Notes under the pieces: model-generated
What the model was told of the DNA's origin: nothing
Database searches by the model: none
The model's input: only the letters and a program-made list of their open reading frames with translations
Position numbers and translations under genes: made by a program
Source: Candidatus Mcinerneyibacteriota bacterium
GTDB lineage: Bacteria > AUK180 > JAQVHJ01
NCBI GenBank assembly: GCA_030630935.1
Contig: DAOVMD010000070.1
Span: 1 to 10,395 of the forward strand
DNA: 10,395 nt
Reading direction: 5' to 3'
Part shown: one piece after another, positions 2,263-10,348 of the stretch
How the letters are laid out: each line of letters starts with the position of its first letter
How positions within the stretch are numbered: position 1 is the stretch's first letter

Positions 2263-3402
2263 ATGAAAAAACTTAGTACAGTACTTATATTTTCTTTAGT
2301 TTTGATGTTATTTTTGGTATCATGTAATAAGCCCAATCCTGAAGAGGAATATAAGGAGCTTTCATTAAAAATTGCTGAGTTAAAAACAGCCAAACCTACT
2401 TCTAAAGAAGAGCAGGCAAAGGTTGACACAGAAATCAAAAGAATTATGACGGAATTCATTGCGAAATTTCCTAATTACGAGAAGACAGCAGACTTGAGTT
2501 ATGAGCTTGTTGAGGTTCGATTAGATGAATTGAAGAAGGCGAAACCATCAACTCAATTTAAAAATCCGAAAGCACCAACAGCTGAAGAGCTTAATAAAAT
2601 GACTGAGGAGCGTAATAAAATTATTGAAGAAGCAGTTCAGATATTAACGACGTTTATAAAGGATTATCCTGATTATGATAAGAGCCAGGATTTTCGATAT
2701 GAACTAAGGGATATATACTCATTTACAGGTAAGCATGATAAAGCGATAAATATGCTGGATGAAATCATAGCCCATACTCCTGAGTCAGATGGTAAAAGAG
2801 CCAAGATTGAAGAGCAGGTAACTATAGAAAAGATTATGATTGTCGAACAAAAACTAAAAGCTGCTTATTCAAAAGACCTTGAGGAAAAGTTAGTTAAGGA
2901 CATTGAGGAATTCAATAAAAAGTATCCGGACAGTAAAGCAAAATCATACTTGGACGGGATTAAACGAACCCTAACCCTTCGAATAGGCAGTCCGATTTTA
3001 GAATATGAAACAAAGGATATTAAAGGTGTTGCATTTTCATTTAAGAAGTATAAAGGTAAGGTTTTATTACTTGATTTCTGGGCTACCTGGTGTGCTCCAT
3101 GTGTACATGAGATGCCGAATGTGCTTGCAACTTATAATAAGTTCCACAAGAAAGGTTTTGATATCATTGGAGTTTCATTTGATAGTGACCTTAAGAAAAT
3201 GAAAGAATTTATTATTAAGGAAAAAATGTCATGGTGTCAGATTGCAGACGGTAAGGGCTGGAATTCGGAGTTTGGAAAGTTTTATAATATTCGGTCAATC
3301 CCGTCAACATATCTGATTGACAGAAAGGGTGTGATTCGTTATATGAATCTACGTGGTAAGGAATTAGAAGAGGCCGTGGATAAGCTTATAAAAGAAAAAT
3401 AA
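2263..3402 (+). CDS. TlpA-like thioredoxin-fold lipoprotein with helical N-terminal region
   Basis: Predicted envelope lipoprotein of 379 residues. A signal peptide (1-20) ends in the lipobox LVSC, with Cys21 as the lipidation site. Residues 22 to about 240 are charged and helical with TPR-like periodicity (segments around FPNYEKTADL, YPDYDKSQDF, TGKHDKAINMLDEII, YPDSKAKSYL). The C-terminal part (about 243-379) is a TlpA/ResA-type thioredoxin domain: DFWATWCAPC with active-site Cys277 and Cys280, and the cis-proline loop SIPSTYLID with Pro347. Proteins of this class usually act as periplasmic thiol-disulfide reductases, for example in cytochrome c or envelope protein maturation; the substrate here is unknown. 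GGAG lies six bases before the ATG and a good promoter precedes it. Only three bases separate it from the next gene, so it opens the operon. Confidence 0.88.
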   Translation: MKKLSTVLIFSLVLMLFLVSCNKPNPEEEYKELSLKIAELKTAKPTSKEEQAKVDTEIKRIMTEFIAKFPNYEKTADLSYELVEVRLDELKKAKPSTQFKNPKAPTAEELNKMTEERNKIIEEAVQILTTFIKDYPDYDKSQDFRYELRDIYSFTGKHDKAINMLDEIIAHTPESDGKRAKIEEQVTIEKIMIVEQKLKAAYSKDLEEKLVKDIEEFNKKYPDSKAKSYLDGIKRTLTLRIGSPILEYETKDIKGVAFSFKKYKGKVLLLDFWATWCAPCVHEMPNVLATYNKFHKKGFDIIGVSFDSDLKKMKEFIIKEKMSWCQIADGKGWNSEFGKFYNIRSIPSTYLIDRKGVIRYMNLRGKELEEAVDKLIKEK

Positions 3403-3405
3403 TAT

Positions 3406-3582
3406 ATGAAAACATTTCAGGAAGAGAAGGAACCTCCGGGGAAGATATTCAAAATTTTTATAGATTCAACCGGGAAAATTCATTTACCTCTTGATTTTCC
3501 TAATAAAGAAGGATTTATAAATTCTATTCCAAATGAAGGAATTTCAGAAAAATTAAAAAAATCAGGGGATTTTTGTGGATAA
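3406..3582 (+). CDS. Small 58-residue hypothetical protein
   Basis: This short open frame starts three bases after the lipoprotein stop and ends eight bases inside the AAA+ ATPase gene, so it fills exactly the space between two real genes. The product is charged, without a membrane segment or signal peptide. It contains a strand-turn-strand-like stretch, KIFKIFIDSTGKIHLPLDF (residues 13-31), and ends SGDFCG. That stretch loosely recalls the EIIIGKDGKLQVKIKGF start of the DUF2997 protein three genes on, but this is too weak to assign a family. No strong ribosome binding site precedes its ATG, so it probably relies on readthrough or coupling from the upstream gene. Its stop overlaps the GTG of the next gene, suggesting it couples translation into the ATPase. 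I do not recognise a function. Confidence 0.62.
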   Translation: MKTFQEEKEPPGKIFKIFIDSTGKIHLPLDFPNKEGFINSIPNEGISEKLKKSGDFCG

Positions 3583-5107
3583 ACAGAAAAATCAAAATTT
3601 ACACGAGATTGAAACTTTGATCCGTGCCAGGTATCCAATAATTTATATTGTAACACACGAAGAATACCGGGTAAAGGGTGAGTTGTTTAAGATAGGTAAG
3701 AAACTTAATAAAAATGTTTTTGAGTGGAGTATCACCAATGGTGTAATCAGGTATTCTGATAATATTGATATGACTCGTCATCCGGAAAAATCCACAAAAG
3801 ATCCGACTTCAGCATTAAGTCAAATTTCTACCGTTGAGGACCCTGCGGCTATATTTATATTAAATGATTTTCATCCGTATTTGAAGGATTCCACTGTTAT
3901 TAGAAAGTTAAAGGAGACCGCAAATAATTTTATTAATTCGTTTAAATCCTTAATTATTATTTCACCTGTGCTTTTAATTCCCTGTGAACTGGAGAAGGAG
4001 ATTACGGTTATTGATTTTGACCTTCCAACTGAAGAAGATTTAAAAGAGTTGTTATTCAGGGTAAAAAAGGAATTAAAAGATGCACAAAATATTGAGCTTA
4101 GTATTTTACCTGATGTCGTTGAAGATGTAATAAATTCGATAACTGGTTTGACTCTCCAGGAAGCGGAGAATGTTTTGGCTAAAGTAATAATTGAAAATAA
4201 AAAAATCACCAGGGAAGAAATTAAAATAATTCTAAATGAAAAGAAACAGGTAATTCGAAAGTCAGAGATACTTGAATATTATACTTCTGATGAAGGTTTT
4301 AATAATATCGGCGGGTTAGAGAATTTAAAGATCTGGTTAAGGCAAAGGAAATTAGCATTTTCTGAGAAAGCAGAAAAATTCGGATTACCAAAACCAAAAG
4401 GCGTTTTATTACTTGGAGTTCAAGGCTGTGGCAAGAGTTTATGTGCGAAAGCGATCTCTACACTATGGAATCTTCCTTTATTGAGATTGGATATGGGGAA
4501 GATTTTCGGGTCACTTGTCGGGTCTTCAGAAGATAATATCAGACGTGCAATTAAAACAGCTGAAAGTATTTCACCGTGTATTGTTTGGATAGACGAGATA
4601 GAAAAAGCTCTATCCGGAGTTCAAAGCTCTGGCTCAACTGATGCCGGCACAACCTCGAGAGTTTTTGGGACATTCATTACCTGGCTTCAAGAGAAAACCA
4701 AACCGGTTTTTGTAATTGCAACTGCTAATGATGTTACAATGCTGCCCCCGGAACTGATGCGAAAGGGCAGGTTTGATGAGATTTTCTTTGTTGACCTTCC
4801 TACACATAATGAACGAAAAACGATATTTAAAATTCATTTGGATAAAAGAGAAAGAACATCTGCAGAATTTGATCTTGAAAAATTAGCAACAGTATCTACA
4901 GGATTTAGCGGTGCAGAGATCGAGCAGGTTATTATCGCATCTTTATATGAAGCATTTTATAATAATACAGATATTGATACTGAGATAGTTACAAAAAAGA
5001 TAAAATCAACTGTTCCACTTTCAAGGTTAATGAAGGAACGGATTGATTCTTTAAGAACCTGGGCAAAAGGTAGAACGATCTCCGCATCGTACGTAGAGAC
5101 TGATTAG
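3575..5107 (+). CDS. Ycf46-type AAA+ ATPase
   Basis: Cytoplasmic AAA+ ATPase of 510 residues in the Ycf46/SpoVK/Vps4-like group. The N-terminal half (about 1-240) lacks a Walker A motif and starts with the Ycf46-type [16 protein letters not shown] segment (residues 15-30). The ATPase module follows: Walker A GVQGCGKS (281-288, Lys287), Walker B IVWIDE with Asp340 and Glu341, sensor-1 Asn385 in ATAND, and arginines 396 and 399 in the MRKGRFDE finger region. All catalytic positions are intact. Start is a GTG with AGGGGA five bases upstream, overlapping the small upstream gene by eight bases. Family members in cyanobacteria and plastids are poorly understood; a link to inorganic-carbon use has been reported for a Synechocystis homologue, as far as I recall. 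Here it sits with DUF1257 and DUF2997 genes. The family call is strong, the role unknown. Confidence 0.88.
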
Positions 5108-5158
5108 AATTAGAAAAGAAAACTAAAAGGCATTTATAATTATAATAGGAGGCTTAAT

Positions 5159-5611
5159 ATGTGTTCTGTAATAGTAATCGTTCCAATAATCGTAGCATGG
5201 CCATTTTTCATGGCTGCTGCAGGTTCAGTTGCGCTTCGGTTAGGTTACCATCTTCAAAAGGAACAAATTGAAGAAACTGAAGAAACTCGTCAGAAAGTCG
5301 AAGTGGATGTGAAAGGTTCAGATATTTTATCAGAATCAATGACTTACGAAGAGACCTTTACTATTCAAGCCGGAGATGTTGATGTTACATTTATGAAAAC
5401 ACCCCGGGGAAAAGTTAAAATGATTGTGACCGGGGAGAATCATTCTAATGACGAATTGAGAAATATAGGAAATGATATCCTCGATAAAGTAACACAACAA
5501 TATACTTTAGCAATGGTGAAGAAAGAGCTTGAATCCCGTGGTTTTGAAATGAATGAAGAAGATACCTTAAAAGATGGTTCGATCAAACTAAATGTAACCA
5601 GGTGGGATTAA
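5159..5611 (+). CDS. DUF1257 (Ycf35-like) protein with hydrophobic N-terminus
   Basis: A protein of 150 residues. Its C-terminal part, about 100-149 (DILDKVTQQYTLAMVKKELESRGF then EDGSIKL-type and TRW), matches the end of the DUF1257/Ycf35 family, which typically finishes with a QxY helix and a DGSI-K/R-L-x-x-x-RW strand. The middle (60-92) is strand-rich. The usual soluble DUF1257 N-terminus is replaced by a strongly hydrophobic stretch, residues 3-29 (VIVIVPIIVAWPFFMAAAG), followed by a Glu/Gln-rich link. This could be a membrane anchor or a buried helix. AGGAGG sits six bases before the ATG, the best ribosome binding site in the operon, which suggests high expression. DUF1257 has no settled biochemical function. 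The family call rests mostly on the C-terminal motif and on the DUF2997 and Ycf46 neighbours. Confidence 0.75.
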   Translation: MCSVIVIVPIIVAWPFFMAAAGSVALRLGYHLQKEQIEETEETRQKVEVDVKGSDILSESMTYEETFTIQAGDVDVTFMKTPRGKVKMIVTGENHSNDELRNIGNDILDKVTQQYTLAMVKKELESRGFEMNEEDTLKDGSIKLNVTRWD

Positions 5612-5630
5612 ATAGAGGAGTATTATATAA

Positions 5631-6419
5631 GTGAGCCGATTTGAATGGCTGGAAATGCCGGATAATAAGAATAAAAACAAACTTAAAAATGTGCACAGTG
5701 ATCCTGCAAATGCTGAAAGGTTTATGGCGCAGGCTGATGAGAAACTCAAGAAAGGAGATTTTGATAACGCATTAAAATACTATTCCAGGGCTTTGGGTGA
5801 AAATCCGAATATTGAAGAGGCCTGGTTTCAGCAAGTCTGGATTTTAATTCAATTTGACGAACTGAAGCAAGCCGAAATTTGGGCAAATAAAGCCCTTGAG
5901 AAATTCCCAAACTCTGTAGGGATTCTTGCGCTTAAGGGTTTATTAAGAGGTTTCCTTGGCGATTTTGAAAAAGCATTAGCGTATCTTGATAATTCAATTT
6001 CAAAAAAAGGAAACCATCGTTTTTGTTGGTTAGCACGAGCGTATGTTTTATTATTACAGAAACCTCATTTGAATTATAAAGCTGCGAGTAGGTGCTTTTT
6101 AAAGGCCATTGAGTCCGGCGGTAAGGACTGGTGGTTTCTTTTGCAAGTAGCAGCAGTTTATATTGAGACGGGTTATCCAAGTGAATCAATGGAACTTCTG
6201 AATAAAGTTAAAAAGATAAAAAGCAATTCCCCGTATTTTCATTATATAATGAGCAGAACATATATGGAGTTAGGGTTTCCAAATGAAGCTCAGGATAAAA
6301 TTACTAAAGCACTTACAATATATCCTAATTTTGAACTTGCACATCAGTATAGTGATTTCATCAGGAACAAAAGGGGGATTTGGTATACGATTAAAAAATT
6401 CTTTCAAAGAAAAATATAG
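5631..6419 (+). CDS. TPR repeat protein (about six repeats)
   Basis: A soluble 262-residue protein made almost wholly of tetratricopeptide repeats: about 27-60 (KKGDFDNALKYYSRALGENP), 61-94 (AEIWANKALEKFP), 95-127 (GDFEKALAYLDNSI), 130-163 (YKAASRCFLKAI), 166-199 and 202-235 (GFPNEAQDKITKALTIYP). There is no signal peptide. It ends with a short basic, aromatic tail (RNKRGIWYTIKKFFQRK, 245-261) that could be an amphipathic membrane- or protein-docking helix. TPR solenoids bind peptide partners, so a scaffold or adaptor for the neighbouring AAA+ or PilT ATPase is plausible but inferred. The start is a GTG with GAGGAG ten bases upstream; the start SRFEWLEMP looks like a conserved leader rather than a TPR. 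Confidence 0.82.
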   Translation: MSRFEWLEMPDNKNKNKLKNVHSDPANAERFMAQADEKLKKGDFDNALKYYSRALGENPNIEEAWFQQVWILIQFDELKQAEIWANKALEKFPNSVGILALKGLLRGFLGDFEKALAYLDNSISKKGNHRFCWLARAYVLLLQKPHLNYKAASRCFLKAIESGGKDWWFLLQVAAVYIETGYPSESMELLNKVKKIKSNSPYFHYIMSRTYMELGFPNEAQDKITKALTIYPNFELAHQYSDFIRNKRGIWYTIKKFFQRKI

Positions 6420-6431
6420 CAGGAGAATTTA

Positions 6432-6635
6432 ATGTCAAAAAAGAGAGAGTTAGAAATAATAATTGGTAAGGATGGTAAACTTCAAGTTAAGATAAAAGGT
6501 TTTCCCGGGAAGGTTTGTATGGATATTGCAAAAATCCTGGAAGAAGCTTTAGGTCCCATCCAAGAAGAAGAACACACATCAGAATATTACGAACCTGAGG
6601 AAGAGACAAAGATCAACTTAGAAAAAAATGAATGA
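6432..6635 (+). CDS. DUF2997 family protein
   Basis: A 67-residue protein with the DUF2997 pattern: a first strand-turn-strand EIIIGKDGKLQVKIKGF (8-24), GKVCMDIAKILEEALG (26-41, with the conserved Cys29), then an acidic tail with EYY (51-53). In cyanobacteria DUF2997 genes are found near DUF1257 genes, so its presence here supports that call too. The function is unknown for the whole family. AGGAG lies six bases before the ATG, and its 3' end overlaps the next gene by eight bases. The tail after the EYY motif is highly acidic (about six Glu in 15 residues), which could serve a binding role. Confidence 0.8.
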   Translation: MSKKRELEIIIGKDGKLQVKIKGFPGKVCMDIAKILEEALGPIQEEEHTSEYYEPEEETKINLEKNE

Positions 6636-7095
6636 TGAAATAAAGGAAAATAAACAATATTATCCGCCCCGGTCACCCAGGAGTATGAATAAAAAATTCT
6701 CACCGAAGATGAATTCATTTAAGAGAATAAAAGGAAAACTTATAGAATTCCGCAGGGGTGAAATTTATTATCATATACTATCAATTATCCCGGGTGTAGG
6801 CCACTTTACCCTGAAACTTTTTAGTCGGGGAGTTTGGTTTTTGGTTTCAATTATTTTATTAATATTGTTAAATATATGGGCATATCCCCACCCGATTTCG
6901 TTACTTCTTATTTTTATATTATTCACCGATCATTTACTAATGTTTCAGGATTTAAGTTTGCAGTATAATCTAAAAATTAATAAACAAAAAAAGATAAATT
7001 GGAAGATTGTAACTTGGGATCTTATTATTTTATTTGTAGTATATTTTTTAATAAGGTTATTCTTTAATTATAATATTCCATTATTTCGAATATGA
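6628..7095 (+). CDS. Small membrane protein, three predicted helices
   Basis: A 155-residue protein I do not recognise as a named family. A basic N-terminal region (1-47, with PPRSPRS and many Lys/Arg) is followed by HILSIIPGVGHFTLKLFSRGVW (49-70). This resembles the PG-G-HF/Y-L-x-R/K re-entrant or turn motif of TM2-like and related small membrane proteins. Predicted membrane segments lie at about 69-86, 88-106 and 128-147, separated by a polar loop (108-126, KINKQKKINW). Lys/Arg-rich N-terminal sequence suggests the N-terminus is cytoplasmic. The start overlaps the DUF2997 stop by eight bases and lacks its own strong ribosome binding site, so translation is probably coupled. It may give this cluster a membrane foothold. 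Confidence 0.78.
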   Translation: MNDEIKENKQYYPPRSPRSMNKKFSPKMNSFKRIKGKLIEFRRGEIYYHILSIIPGVGHFTLKLFSRGVWFLVSIILLILLNIWAYPHPISLLLIFILFTDHLLMFQDLSLQYNLKINKQKKINWKIVTWDLIILFVVYFLIRLFFNYNIPLFRI

Positions 7096-7122
7096 AGATA
7101 TTTTTAATATTAAGGAGTTAAT

Positions 7123-8169
7123 ATGAATAAATTTGAAGTTTTATTAGAGAAGGCAGTTCAGGAAGATGCATCTGACCTTCATTTAATCTGTGGTTTGAGA
7201 CCGATGTTACGAATCGGTGGAGAGCTTTATCCCATGAAGGAGAAAGTGCTGGAATCAGAAGATATTTCAAAGATGGTAGATTCAATCTTGAATCCGTTCC
7301 AAAAAGAAAAGTTTAAGAAGGAATTACAGTTAAGTTTTTCTATTTATTTCCCAGGGCTAGGAAGGTTTAGAGTTAGTGTTTATAAAGCGAAGGGGAATAT
7401 TGAAATGGCAATTAGGATTATCGGGGAGAGGTTAAAGAGTAAGGTTGAACTTCGGCTACCGGATTATATTGACGAGATTGCACATTTTCCAAACGGTTTG
7501 GTTTTAGTAACCGGACCGACCGGGGCAGGGAAGACAACCACTTTAAATATTATAATTGATATTATTAATAATGACAGGAGTGCAAAGATATTAACAATTG
7601 AAGATCCGATTGAGTATTACCATTCACATAAAAAAAGTTTGATAGTTCAAAAGGAAGTCTTGATTGATACCCCAAGTTTTGATATGGCGCTGTTTCATGC
7701 ACTCAGGGAAGATCCGGATGTGATTGTAATAGGTGAGATGCGGAACCTTGAAACTATTCAAACCGCATTAACCGCAGCAGAAACCGGACACCTCGTCTTA
7801 GCTACTTTACATACGGCAGATGCAACGCAAACTATCCAGAGAATTGTAGATGTTTTCCCCCCGCATCAGCAGTCTCAGGTCAGGGTACAGCTTGCATATA
7901 CATTAAGAGGGGTTTTATCTCAAAGATTATTACCTGTGGTTGGTGAGAAAAAGAGGGTGCTTGCGCACGAGATATTGAAAAATAATGCTGCGGTCAGAAA
8001 TTGTATTAGAGAAAATAAACCGTCAAGTATTAGGAATATAATTCAAACTCATTATCGCGATGGTATGATTCTAATGGATTCTGTTATTAAAGAACTTTAT
8101 CAGGAAGGAATAATCTCTTATGATACTGCTCTGATTAATGTCGTAAATGAAAAAATAATTAAAGGATAA
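7123..8169 (+). CDS. PilT-family hexameric ATPase (type IV pilus retraction-type)
   Basis: A GspE/PilT-class ATPase of 348 residues, normal PilT length. An N-terminal domain (1-110; ASDLHL and GRFRVSVY) is followed by Walker A GPTGAGKTT (131-139, Lys137), the Asp box IEDPIEY with Glu160 and Asp161, Walker B with Glu205, the His box LATLHTADA with His230, and a PilT C-terminal pattern (AVRNCIRENK, IQTHYRDGMILMDSVIKELYQEG). The usual GEMRDLET is GEMRNLET here (Asn208), a mild change next to the Walker B glutamate. PilT motors drive pilus retraction and twitching motility. No pilin, PilC, PilB or secretin gene lies in this window, so it may work with pilus parts elsewhere or power a different complex. 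AAGGAG lies five bases before the ATG, 27 bases after the membrane protein gene. It is the last gene of the operon. Confidence 0.9.
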   Translation: MNKFEVLLEKAVQEDASDLHLICGLRPMLRIGGELYPMKEKVLESEDISKMVDSILNPFQKEKFKKELQLSFSIYFPGLGRFRVSVYKAKGNIEMAIRIIGERLKSKVELRLPDYIDEIAHFPNGLVLVTGPTGAGKTTTLNIIIDIINNDRSAKILTIEDPIEYYHSHKKSLIVQKEVLIDTPSFDMALFHALREDPDVIVIGEMRNLETIQTALTAAETGHLVLATLHTADATQTIQRIVDVFPPHQQSQVRVQLAYTLRGVLSQRLLPVVGEKKRVLAHEILKNNAAVRNCIRENKPSSIRNIIQTHYRDGMILMDSVIKELYQEGIISYDTALINVVNEKIIKG

Positions 8170-8230
8170 AAAATAAAAGACAGTGAGCTGGTTGGTAACA
8201 AATGAAGTTGGTTGGATTAACTACGTATGA

Positions 8231-8283
8231 GTGTCATCGCGAGGGAGCATCGCGACCGTGGCGATCTCGCTTTTAAAAAGAAA
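8231..8283 (+). terminator. REP-like GC-rich hairpin with T tract, downstream of the PilT gene
   Basis: GCGAG (8239-8243) pairs with CTCGC (8266-8270), and inside them ATCGC (8249-8253) pairs with GCGAT (8261-8265), leaving a five-base bulge and a seven-base loop. TTTT follows directly at 8271. The element starts 62 bases after the PilT stop. It belongs to the same repeat family as 8543-8592, sharing the TCTCGCTTTTAAAAAGAA end exactly. It is plausible as a factor-independent terminator borrowed from a repeat; the bulge and short T tract make its strength uncertain. Confidence 0.45.
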
Positions 8284-8314
8284 ATTCATCTTTGTAATTT
8301 ATTTAATAATATCT

Positions 8315-8355
8315 GATTATAAAAAAATAATAGGAATTAATTTGTTTTTATAATC
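8315..8355. repeat. AT-rich inverted repeat
   Basis: GATTATAAAAA (8315-8325) and TTTTTATAATC (8345-8355) are perfect 11-bp reverse complements around 19 bases. The core matches the right arm of the inverted repeat at 8-98, which suggests a family of AT-rich elements dispersed in the spacers. Confidence 0.6.
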
Positions 8356-8393
8356 CTTTCATACGGGTGTTTAAATCCGTTTGGTCAGGGCAT

Positions 8394-8418
8394 GTTTGGT
8401 TAACTTTGTTAACCAAAC
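8394..8418. repeat. Perfect 11-bp hairpin with 3-base loop
   Basis: GTTTGGTTAAC (8394-8404), loop TTT, GTTAACCAAAC (8408-8418). It is perfect and tight, but no T tract follows on either strand, so it does not look like a standard terminator. It lies midway between two convergent operons and might block readthrough, bind a dyad-recognising protein or be the tip of an old inverted insertion. Confidence 0.7.
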
Positions 8419-8480
8419 CGAGAGTAGATAGCAGAGAACAGAGAGCAGTCGTTTTATAGATAGCAGTAGGGGCTTCGATG

Positions 8481-8508
8481 CAAACGTTCTTTTAAAAGCG
8501 AGAATGCC
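8481..8508 (-). repeat. Truncated REP-like unit
   Basis: This runs parallel to 8538-8566: both read CAAA, C or T, GTTCTTTT, then AAAAGCGAGA and TGCC, with a one-base gap. Only the CTCGCTTTT half of the REP-like unit (minus-strand sense) is present; the stem partner is missing, replaced by CGGAGGCACAGCC. It is a decayed or partial copy. Confidence 0.6.
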
Positions 8509-8542
8509 GGAGGCACAGCCTCTTTAATAATGATATTCAAAT

Positions 8543-8592
8543 GTTCTTTTTAAAAGCGAGATTGCCGCGTTGCTTCGCTCCTCGCAATGACA
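8543..8592 (-). terminator. REP-like GC-rich hairpin with T tract, downstream of the HD gene
   Basis: On the minus strand GCGAG (8585-8581) pairs with CTCGC (8560-8556) and TTTT follows (8555-8552). The remaining interior can pair further (TTGC with GCAA). It starts about 20 bases after the stop of the HD-domain gene and is an inverted copy of the element at 8231-8283. The position and orientation mirror that element relative to the PilT gene, as expected if each acts as a terminator for its own operon. Confidence 0.45.
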
Positions 8593-8611: not shown

Positions 8612-9418
8612 TTACAAATACAATAGTTCTGTTCCGTCTTTTAATTGTGCAACAATATGAATATATTTTTTAATTGAGCTTTTTGAAACCTTGCCGTATA
8701 AAACTTCTTCAATTTGAAAAACCCCTGCCTTATCTTCCATGTCAACTGTTATCTTGATAGGTCGTTCTTCATCACCTGGGCCGATGATAACCTTATTAAT
8801 GCTCATTGCGGAATATTTATGAATATCACCTATCGTAGGTTTTTTCTGGAGAACATAAGGAATTCTTGCGCGGCCTTTACTCATATCGCAGCCGTCACTT
8901 ACAAGTATAATTCCCGCTTCAATTGACGTGACATTAAAATCTCCCATGTGCCCGAGAATTGCTTCAAAAACCATTGCTTTATATATTAAGGCTTTGTTTT
9001 TATCGTCATAAAGTTTGAATAAAATATTCTCAATTATTTCTGTGCCGATAATAATGGAGTTGCGCTCATGGCTTTTTCTTCCCATTGCCATACCGATATC
9101 ATGACAAAAGCCCGCAATTAAAATCAGGATTGTAGAGTCTTCAAATGTTCCTAATTTCTCTTCTTCAAGAGATGTCTCAATCTTATTTTCAAGCAGGTTC
9201 AGAATATCAAGAGAGTTTCTTGCAACCATTCTCGCATGAACAGGACCATGATCGTTATAACCAAGTCGGTTAATAGAGACGATATTGGCATATTCCTGGA
9301 GATGATTCAGCTGTTTATCTTTAATGAGTAAGTCTAAAGTTTCTTGGACTTTGCCTGTAACTGAAGCAAGCATTTCCTTTTCTAAATGTTTTTGAAATCT
9401 GCTAACTGGAAAACGCAT
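8612..9418 (-). CDS. HD-domain metal-dependent phosphohydrolase
   Basis: A 268-residue HD-superfamily protein. The metal ligands are visible in order: His57 and His61 (NDHGPVHA), His106-Asp107 (CHDIGM), His117 (SHE), His157 (LGHMGD) and Asp175/Asp178 (VSDGCDMSKGRARIP). The long C-terminal signature (SIEAGIILVSDGCDM, DIHKYSAMSINKVII, then KAGVFQIEEVL) matches a group of HD phosphohydrolases found in archaea and some bacteria whose substrate is, to my knowledge, not established. There is no signal peptide or membrane segment; it is probably cytoplasmic and may act on a nucleotide or cyclic nucleotide. GGGAGG lies five bases before the ATG. It starts 15 bases after the UPF0158 stop, so the two are surely co-transcribed. 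Confidence 0.85.
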   Translation of the reverse strand: MRFPVSRFQKHLEKEMLASVTGKVQETLDLLIKDKQLNHLQEYANIVSINRLGYNDHGPVHARMVARNSLDILNLLENKIETSLEEEKLGTFEDSTILILIAGFCHDIGMAMGRKSHERNSIIIGTEIIENILFKLYDDKNKALIYKAMVFEAILGHMGDFNVTSIEAGIILVSDGCDMSKGRARIPYVLQKKPTIGDIHKYSAMSINKVIIGPGDEERPIKITVDMEDKAGVFQIEEVLYGKVSKSSIKKYIHIVAQLKDGTELLYL

Positions 9419-9433
9419 GGAATCCTCCCGGTA

Positions 9434-9853
9434 TTAAATGTTTATATAATTTTCTCTTAACCATTGAATAACTTCTTCTTCTATACATTCTTCCAAATAA
9501 TCATACCACTCTCTTAAAATCGCCTGGTCTTCAACTGAAAGAGTATCTTTGAATCGGGAAAATGCCCCTTTCTCTGTTGAGATTGCACGCCTAAGTTTTT
9601 CCTGGAGACCTTTATTGGAAATTTTGGTATTGATAAATGTCCTCATATCTTCAAAACTCTGGTGACCCTGACGCTTGGGAATGGGGATATAGCGGTCTGG
9701 AGACTTCTGAACCTTCGCAGCAATCTCTAATTTGTAATCTTCATCATCTTCGTCCGAAACTTCAAATACTTTCAAAGTATTCTTATCCAGAATATAAATC
9801 CTATCCCTGTGGGTTGATGAGAACGCTTCTTTGATTGGTGTAATATCTTTCAT
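9434..9853 (-). CDS. UPF0158 family protein
   Basis: A 139-residue protein matching the UPF0158 family: RYIPIPKRQGHQSFEDMRTFI (a strand then the start of a helix), KLRRAISTEKGAFSRFKDTL (the characteristic GAF-RFKD core) and a C-terminal REWYDYLEECIEEEVIQWLREN helix. The function of the family is unknown. I chose the ATG at 9853 because GAAGGAG lies six bases upstream. A longer frame could begin with a TTG at 9880, but that codon lies at the -10 box of the predicted promoter, upstream of the likely transcript start. It is the first gene of the two-gene minus-strand operon with the HD phosphohydrolase. Confidence 0.82.
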   Translation of the reverse strand: MKDITPIKEAFSSTHRDRIYILDKNTLKVFEVSDEDDEDYKLEIAAKVQKSPDRYIPIPKRQGHQSFEDMRTFINTKISNKGLQEKLRRAISTEKGAFSRFKDTLSVEDQAILREWYDYLEECIEEEVIQWLRENYINI

Positions 9854-9880
9854 CTTTTTCTCCTTCAAAATATATTTCAA

Positions 9881-9909
9881 AGTATAACATAAATCTTTTA
9901 ACTTTGCAA
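9881..9909 (-). promoter_or_regulatory. Extended -10 promoter of the UPF0158-HD operon
   Basis: Read on the minus strand, TTGCAA (9909-9904) is followed after 17 bases by TATACT (9886-9881), preceded by TGT to give the extended -10 form TGTTATACT. Initiation would be near 9874, about 20 bases before the ATG at 9853, with the ribosome binding site in between. The -10 is a five-of-six match and the -35 a weaker one. Confidence 0.6.
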
Positions 9910-10027
9910 TGTAAATTTAACAGCGAAACAAAGAAAATAATAGTTTCGCTTCGCTACACATTTATGATTTATGATTGATAATTATTAATTTAAGATTGAT
10001 TTTGCATTATGTATTACAATTCAGTAG

Positions 10028-10047
10028 GGGCGACCGGCCGGGCGCCC
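10028..10047. repeat. GC-rich palindrome
   Basis: GGGCG, AC, CGGCCG, GG, CGCCC forms a near-perfect 20-bp palindrome, with one pair of mismatched dinucleotides. The preceding CAGTAGGGGC also occurs at 8464-8473. The GTAGGGGCG...CGCCC type of sequence is common as an interspersed repeat in bacterial genomes. It stands out as a GC island in a very AT-rich stretch. Confidence 0.6.
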
Positions 10048-10196
10048 TGACCGTAAGAAATAAAACACCCATTCGATAAAAAAATATAAAACAAAAGGAG
10101 AAAAGAAAAACAAAGAAAAGAATAAAACAAATTTTTAACAGGGATGGACGGGATGAAAAACAACAAATTCGCTTCGCTCAAACTTTTTTTTAACCG

Positions 10197-10215
10197 CCCC
10201 GAAGTGAATTCGGGG
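10197..10215. repeat. Short perfect hairpin
   Basis: CCCCGAA (10197-10203), loop GTGAA, TTCGGGG (10209-10215). A seven-pair GC-rich stem. On the minus strand AAAAAAAA/TTTTTTT lies upstream of the left arm (10183-10191 on plus reads CTTTTTTTT), so on neither strand does the T tract follow the stem correctly for a terminator. Probably another repeat-derived palindrome. Confidence 0.55.
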
Positions 10216-10348
10216 TAAACTCCGGACGCAGAGAAAAATAAAACAACAAAAGAAGAATAAAGATCAAAAAAATATTCTACTGCCTTACCCCCATTTTTTT
10301 GTATTAGATATTTGTAAGTATTAAACTATTGGATAAAAATGTCGAATT

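Follow-up and report, generated by a model that had tools for sequence, protein, structure and literature searches.

The window analysed here is a stretch of 10,395 nucleotides from a Candidatus Mcinerneyibacteriota bacterium (contig DAOVMD010000070.1 of assembly GCA_030630935.1), which harbors a cassette of seven genes encoding a Ycf46-type AAA+ ATPase, a DUF1257 (Ycf35-related) protein, a DUF2997 protein, a small hairpin protein (HPD), a tetratricopeptide repeat (TPR) protein, a small membrane protein and a PilT-family ATPase. A preliminary description, made from the sequence of the window, had listed seven consecutive plus-strand genes with gaps of -8 to +51 bases, and the open reading frames (ORFs) were indeed found at the following positions, with intergenic distances along the cassette of -8, +51, +19, +12, -8 and +27 bases:

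3406-3582, plus strand: HPD, small hairpin protein, 58 aa; without a family, conserved in relatives
3575-5107, plus strand: Ycf46-type AAA+ ATPase, 510 aa, GTG start (PF00004, 1.6e-29)
5159-5611, plus strand: DUF1257 (Ycf35-related) protein, 150 aa, with a hydrophobic N-terminal segment (PF06868)
5631-6419, plus strand: TPR protein, 262 aa, GTG start (Pfam TPR models)
6432-6635, plus strand: DUF2997 protein, 67 aa (PF11211, 4.4e-15)
6628-7095, plus strand: small membrane protein, 155 aa, with an I-P-G-V-G-H motif (alignments; weak DUF6677 match)
7123-8169, plus strand: PilT-family ATPase of the cassette clade, 348 aa (TIGR01420)

The absence of an internal terminator, also noted in that description, is uncontradicted, as the terminator scan returned seven sites in total on both strands, compared with 6.2 expected from shuffling; within the cassette genes, three weak sites resembling terminators are found on the plus strand. 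The genome from which the window is drawn (80% complete) contains a single DUF1257 locus.

Recurrence of the cassette in related and distant genomes

All seven cassette genes are present in identical order in G001, the sole genome of the same family that was found, which belongs to a different genus. The identity between the two genomes amounts to 53-61% for HPD, 76% for Ycf46, 54% for DUF1257, 51% for the TPR protein, 78% for DUF2997, 34% for the membrane protein and 75% for PilT, the pN/pS ratios of the cassette genes range from 0.12 to 0.68, and the -8 overlap of the HPD ORF with ycf46 is kept. DUF1257 and DUF2997 were not found in the same-class genomes G002-G006, hence the cassette has a patchy distribution.

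For a wider comparison, 80 Ycf46 loci were collected by similarity, and DUF2997 was searched for in three sets of genomes: 294 from the Planctomycetota, 149 from the phylum of G061 and 386 sampled across the domain. PilT adjoins other cassette components in 24 loci, which belong to the Planctomycetota, the G061 phylum, the phylum of the window and, beyond the class of the window, to four families; the domain-wide cassette cases outside this class are G618, G677, G759 and G719. Among the 80 Ycf46 loci, a co-oriented PilT gene is located downstream in Planctomycetota and in L003 (labelled Chloroflexi), and most of these loci also hold DUF1257, DUF2997, the membrane protein and the TPR protein. 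We estimate that, with about five PilT copies in a genome of about 4 Mb, a given gene would have a copy no farther away than 5 kb in about 1% of cases, so that the recurrence of PilT in 24 loci is far beyond chance. In L195 the gene content is unchanged and the order reads ycf46, DUF1257, TPR, DUF2997, PilT and membrane protein, while L011 has Ycf46, TPR and PilT without hits to DUF1257, DUF2997 and the membrane protein. Early assignments of a nearby PilT at L095 and L097 were false, having arisen from weak TPR hits, and were discarded.

The linkage was also probed starting from the membrane protein. When this protein alone was searched for in the 294 Planctomycetota genomes, 12 hits that start at an N-terminal zinc ribbon were returned; all of them adjoin DUF2997, and in 11 the TPR protein and PilT are nearby as well. 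The exception, L177, contains DUF1257, DUF2997 and the membrane protein and has no PilT, TPR or Ycf46 hit nearby; the other hits of this search match the signal-peptidase-like half only. Within the cassettes, the pairwise distances of Ycf46, PilT and the TPR protein are correlated (r 0.79-0.86; 0 of 999 permutations). The seven genes almost certainly constitute one conserved module. The preliminary description had regarded the gene set as a unit coupled to PilT, the TPR protein and the membrane protein, and had considered that the association would be incidental if PilT and the membrane protein were linked to the set in this genome only; the conservation in 24 loci of several lineages bears out the former and leads us to reject an incidental linkage.

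The Ycf46, DUF1257 and DUF2997 families are shared with the cluster known from cyanobacteria and plastids, and ycf46 adjoins DUF1257 in cyanobacterial loci. In contrast to the cassette, the cyanobacterial loci examined have neither PilT nor a membrane protein of the cassette type, and their DUF1257 has no hydrophobic N-terminus. In Synechocystis, ycf46 shares an operon with slr0373 and slr0376 (PMC7496141). DUF2997-ycf35-fed7 has been published as cluster g (PMC4284462), and none of the papers found gives Ycf46, Ycf35 or DUF2997 a settled molecular role, as had been stated beforehand. In a search of open-licence full texts, no paper was found that names Ycf46 together with PilT; three papers in total mention DUF1257 or DUF2997, and this cassette is nowhere described. 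The comparison bears out the suspicion that the window contains an undescribed system.

Two further groups of loci were observed in these searches. The planctomycete G308 has seven DUF2997 loci (L133, L137, L138, L147, L148, L156 and L168) with divergent DUF1257 and Ycf46, which represent another type of the core trio of Ycf46, DUF1257 and DUF2997, present in many copies; the two loci that were examined, L133 and L148, include a small lipoprotein-like gene. Ycf46 is also carried by contigs labelled Hodarchaeota (L031) and Methanoregulaceae (L022), and in L031 DUF1257 and DUF2997 are located upstream of Ycf46, which may reflect an archaeal trio or contaminated bins.

Two ATPases and their small partners

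The Ycf46 protein of the window is 47-49% identical to the named cyanobacterial loci over residues 10-505, and an alignment of 33 rows has invariant Walker and arginine-finger residues in the C-terminal AAA+ domain. The N-terminal domain is AAA+-shaped in the structural model and has no P-loop in the sequence. In this model (pLDDT 79), residues 2-399 align to the tandem AAA+ protein Rix7 (Z 19.1, 364 residues, rmsd 4.1), the alignment to p97 is similar, and the Ycf46 profile also matches p97. Judging from model and sequence, Ycf46 most likely works in the manner of a double-ring remodeller in which only one of the rings is active. It would share two AAA+ domains in series with p97/Cdc48, Rix7 and NVL, but differs from them in that its first AAA+ domain has no P-loop, a ubiquitin-adaptor N-domain is missing and the partners are bacterial. 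The monophyly of the cassette Ycf46 proteins is unsupported, with 18 of 22 falling into a clade of 21 (support 0.09). A role in defence was considered and dropped, because the PADLOC match to IetA of an anti-phage system (2.3e-28) covers the generic AAA+ core only, and, in contrast to IetAS, no protease (subtilisin) partner is seen among the cassette neighbours.

The PilT of the window scores 414 bits with TIGR01420 (cut-off 319). Like the PilT/PilU type 4a retraction ATPases, the cassette PilTs have the full TIGR01420 architecture, and nearly all of them retain the Walker A and B motifs, the Asp and His boxes and the AIRNLIRE-like motif. They differ from these ATPases by being tied to Ycf46, by being encoded outside any pilus operon, by a Walker A motif with GKT in all members (mostly GKS in other PilTs) and by forming a separate clade: 17 cassette genes group together in a tree with other PilTs of the same genomes (support 0.999), as do 21 cassette PilTs in a wider sample (support 0.98). 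The genomes tested carry further PilT or PilB paralogues, type IV pilus-type genes sit elsewhere in the cassette genomes, and the filament platform family PF00482 is found in 17 of 18 of them. The separate clade, the other paralogues and the presence of PF00482 together mark the cassette PilT as an additional copy with a specialisation of its own, in bacteria that possess type IV filament genes; it is presumably a retraction-type motor. The catalytic motifs of both Ycf46 and PilT are intact, which is consistent with the two different ring ATPases that had been proposed for this locus.

The DUF1257 protein of the window matches PF06868 with 30 bits (cut-off 22.2) in its C-terminal part only. 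Its hydrophobic N-terminal stretch, which is typical of the cassette proteins and not present in cyanobacterial Ycf35 (alignment with 22 relatives), fits a membrane location. The model of DUF1257 (pLDDT 70) has a sheet over a long helix, for which Foldseek/VIA gave no clear relative; the matches comprise many unrelated mixed alpha/beta folds, the best being a phosphoglucomutase domain (Z 10.0, 84 residues). DUF2997 scores 55.7 bits with PF11211 (cut-off 24.1), and a homology between DUF1257 and DUF2997 was rejected as unsupported (hhalign probability 1.1). The TPR protein has a conserved N-terminal M-x-R-F-x-x-L-E motif and 28 invariant columns among eight cassette members.

No family scores above its cut-off for the membrane protein of the window. 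The profile of a long form, which is found in other cassettes and has a zinc ribbon at its N-terminus in addition to a transmembrane part and a signal-peptidase-like (S26) domain, matches the short form of the window with 33 bits, and the proteins of the window and G001 retain the transmembrane part alone. The long form shares with signal peptidase I a C-terminal domain that matches PF10502 (32.3 bits in L008, cut-off 22.9), but in an alignment of nine long-form members, inspected by eye, neither the catalytic Ser nor the catalytic Lys of S26 is conserved. In the Omnitrophota locus L005, a separate zinc-ribbon protein is encoded between ycf46 and DUF1257 (9524-10228) and may correspond to the ribbon at the N-terminus of the long membrane protein.

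HPD is characterized by a central I-x-I-D-x-x-G-K-I-x-L hairpin and a C-terminal ...DFCG, of which the terminal Cys-Gly is invariant in eight aligned members, namely those of the window, G001 and six Omnitrophota loci. No Pfam family covers HPD, and none was found in the family libraries searched. In an unselected sample, each of the six class-1 Omnitrophota loci has a small ORF with the hairpin motif immediately upstream of ycf46, and a stand-alone hairpin protein precedes ycf46 in Planctomycetota loci other than those with the radical-SAM fusion described below. When 55,782 translated segments were searched with the hairpin profile, the proteins of L008, L006, L002 and L161, which are outside its seed, were recovered directly upstream of ycf46 (E 8e-5 to 0.02). 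The domain-wide search with the first eight-member alignment gave hits above noise to its own family only, apart from one weak hit in G586 near a DUF2997 gene, and a broader seed performed better locally. A profile comparison (58-80%) is no more than suggestive of a homology between HPD and DUF2997.

A putative envelope machine and its alternatives

We favor, tentatively and with somewhat less than even confidence, the reading that the cassette is one functional module that is probably located on the cytoplasmic membrane and uses two ATP motors. The sequences suggest that the seven genes probably form one machine, which we put forward as a hypothesis and for which we infer the membrane location, the contacts and the client. 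The hexamer of the cassette PilT would serve as an extra retraction-type motor on a type IV pilus or a related filament platform encoded elsewhere, with the membrane protein and the TPR protein anchoring or scaffolding it. HPD, DUF1257 and DUF2997 would present a client protein to the p97/Rix7-like Ycf46 hexamer, which would remodel or recycle it, for example by dismantling a stalled motor or platform complex, or by gating the loading of the motor. Taken alone, this pilus-linked mechanism is possible but doubtful. A new class of bacterial envelope machine, in which Ycf46 as a p97-like remodeller and PilT as the second motor act in series on one client, the conserved hairpin protein, Cys-Gly-tailed or fused to a radical-SAM protein, being tag or substrate, is rather unlikely. 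If the link is functional, an unfoldase-type ring would be coupled to a motor of the pilus type, which to our knowledge is the case in no described system, and this would help to explain the cyanobacterial proteins as well. With a PilT clade, a membrane protein and a new small protein, the cassette provides testable partners for Ycf46, Ycf35 and DUF2997, whose conservation extends from plastids to Planctomycetota. An envelope-side effect in a 2015 work, as far as it is conveyed by the paper that cites it (PMC7496141), is counted in favor of a module at the membrane.

Several observations weigh against this reading. PilT-free forms of the core trio exist in cyanobacteria, Myxococcota and Omnitrophota, hence Ycf46 can do without PilT, which is one partner among several. 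The correlated distances of Ycf46, PilT and the TPR protein may partly stem from a common species history. PF00482 was not detected in G001, a genome that is 72% complete, and no solved-structure relative of DUF1257 or DUF2997 was found by sequence search. Pilin, PilC, PilB and secretin are all missing among the cassette genes, which would also fit a filament-independent envelope machine, where PilT, recruited from pili, uses the membrane protein of the cassette as its platform and, for example, moves or processes envelope proteins, while Ycf46 supplies or clears the substrate. The tie between the membrane protein and the cassette PilT clade points in this direction, as do the S26-like domain without catalytic Ser and Lys at the end of most cassette membrane proteins and a rhomboid-family gene, which precedes a radical-SAM gene upstream of the cassette in five loci (L002, L006, L007, L008 and L161). 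However, the filament platform is present in all but one of the cassette genomes tested, the cassette PilT retains the whole TIGR01420 architecture, and the S26 domain is missing from the membrane protein of the window, and we regard a machine of this kind as distinctly unlikely.

The radical-SAM gene itself is a neighbour of ycf46 in 14 of the 24 cassette loci, mostly on its immediate upstream side; no other fetched locus has it there, and the C-terminus of its product is the hairpin domain in L195, L196, L235, L236 and probably L194; a comparison of the profiles of the Cys-Gly proteins and the radical-SAM tail set gave 89% probability. Together with the invariant C-terminal Cys-Gly, this could indicate a modification system, in which the radical-SAM protein modifies HPD (or the Cys-Gly tail is a handle), Ycf46, DUF1257 and DUF2997 mature or unload the product, and PilT gives force or location. 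Such a system is improbable, as the radical-SAM gene is not beside the cassette in the window, G001 and the G061 phylum, where homologues are encoded elsewhere in the genomes, and the Cys-Gly-tailed and radical-SAM-fused forms were never seen within one locus. As regards a candidate glycyl-radical or RiPP-like substrate, a radical-SAM gene thus accompanies the small protein in many relatives, in some as a fusion, and is not found next to the cassette of the window. Alternatively, the cassette could be a loose neighbourhood of separate stress and envelope housekeeping genes, which have a common promoter and are transferred jointly and do not form a machine. The patchy distribution, with same-class genomes devoid of DUF1257 and DUF2997, and the core trio without PilT would be explained in this way, but it is always one PilT clade among several paralogues that is found at the cassette, L195 keeps its content though the order differs, and the membrane protein is linked in 12 of 12 cases, which makes a mere neighbourhood very improbable.

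Genes flanking the cassette

The gene upstream of the cassette is listed here in the same manner:

2263-3402, plus strand: redoxin lipoprotein, with its stop 3 bases before the HPD ORF

The lipoprotein has an LVSC lipobox as well as TPR-like and thioredoxin/redoxin domains, and, of all promoter-like sites in the window, the best one (TTGACA-17-TAAAAT, 2206-2234) precedes its gene. The preliminary description had placed the cassette behind this gene, and the gap of 3 bases holds. The gene is missing upstream of the cassette in G001, where a second ycf46 copy takes its place. The lipoprotein was thus dropped as a cassette component, and its place beside the cassette is probably incidental. The second G001 Ycf46 (L086, 9436-10875, minus strand), directly upstream of the cassette, is divergent and 49% identical to that of the window.

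Downstream of the cassette, short repeated pieces (GCGAG...CTCGCTTTTAAAA) that look like dispersed repeats are located at 8230-8580, between pilT and a convergent HD gene. The latter belongs to a convergent pair on the minus strand (8612-9880) that encodes HD-domain and UPF0158 proteins and is kept in G001 with identities of 70% and 65%.

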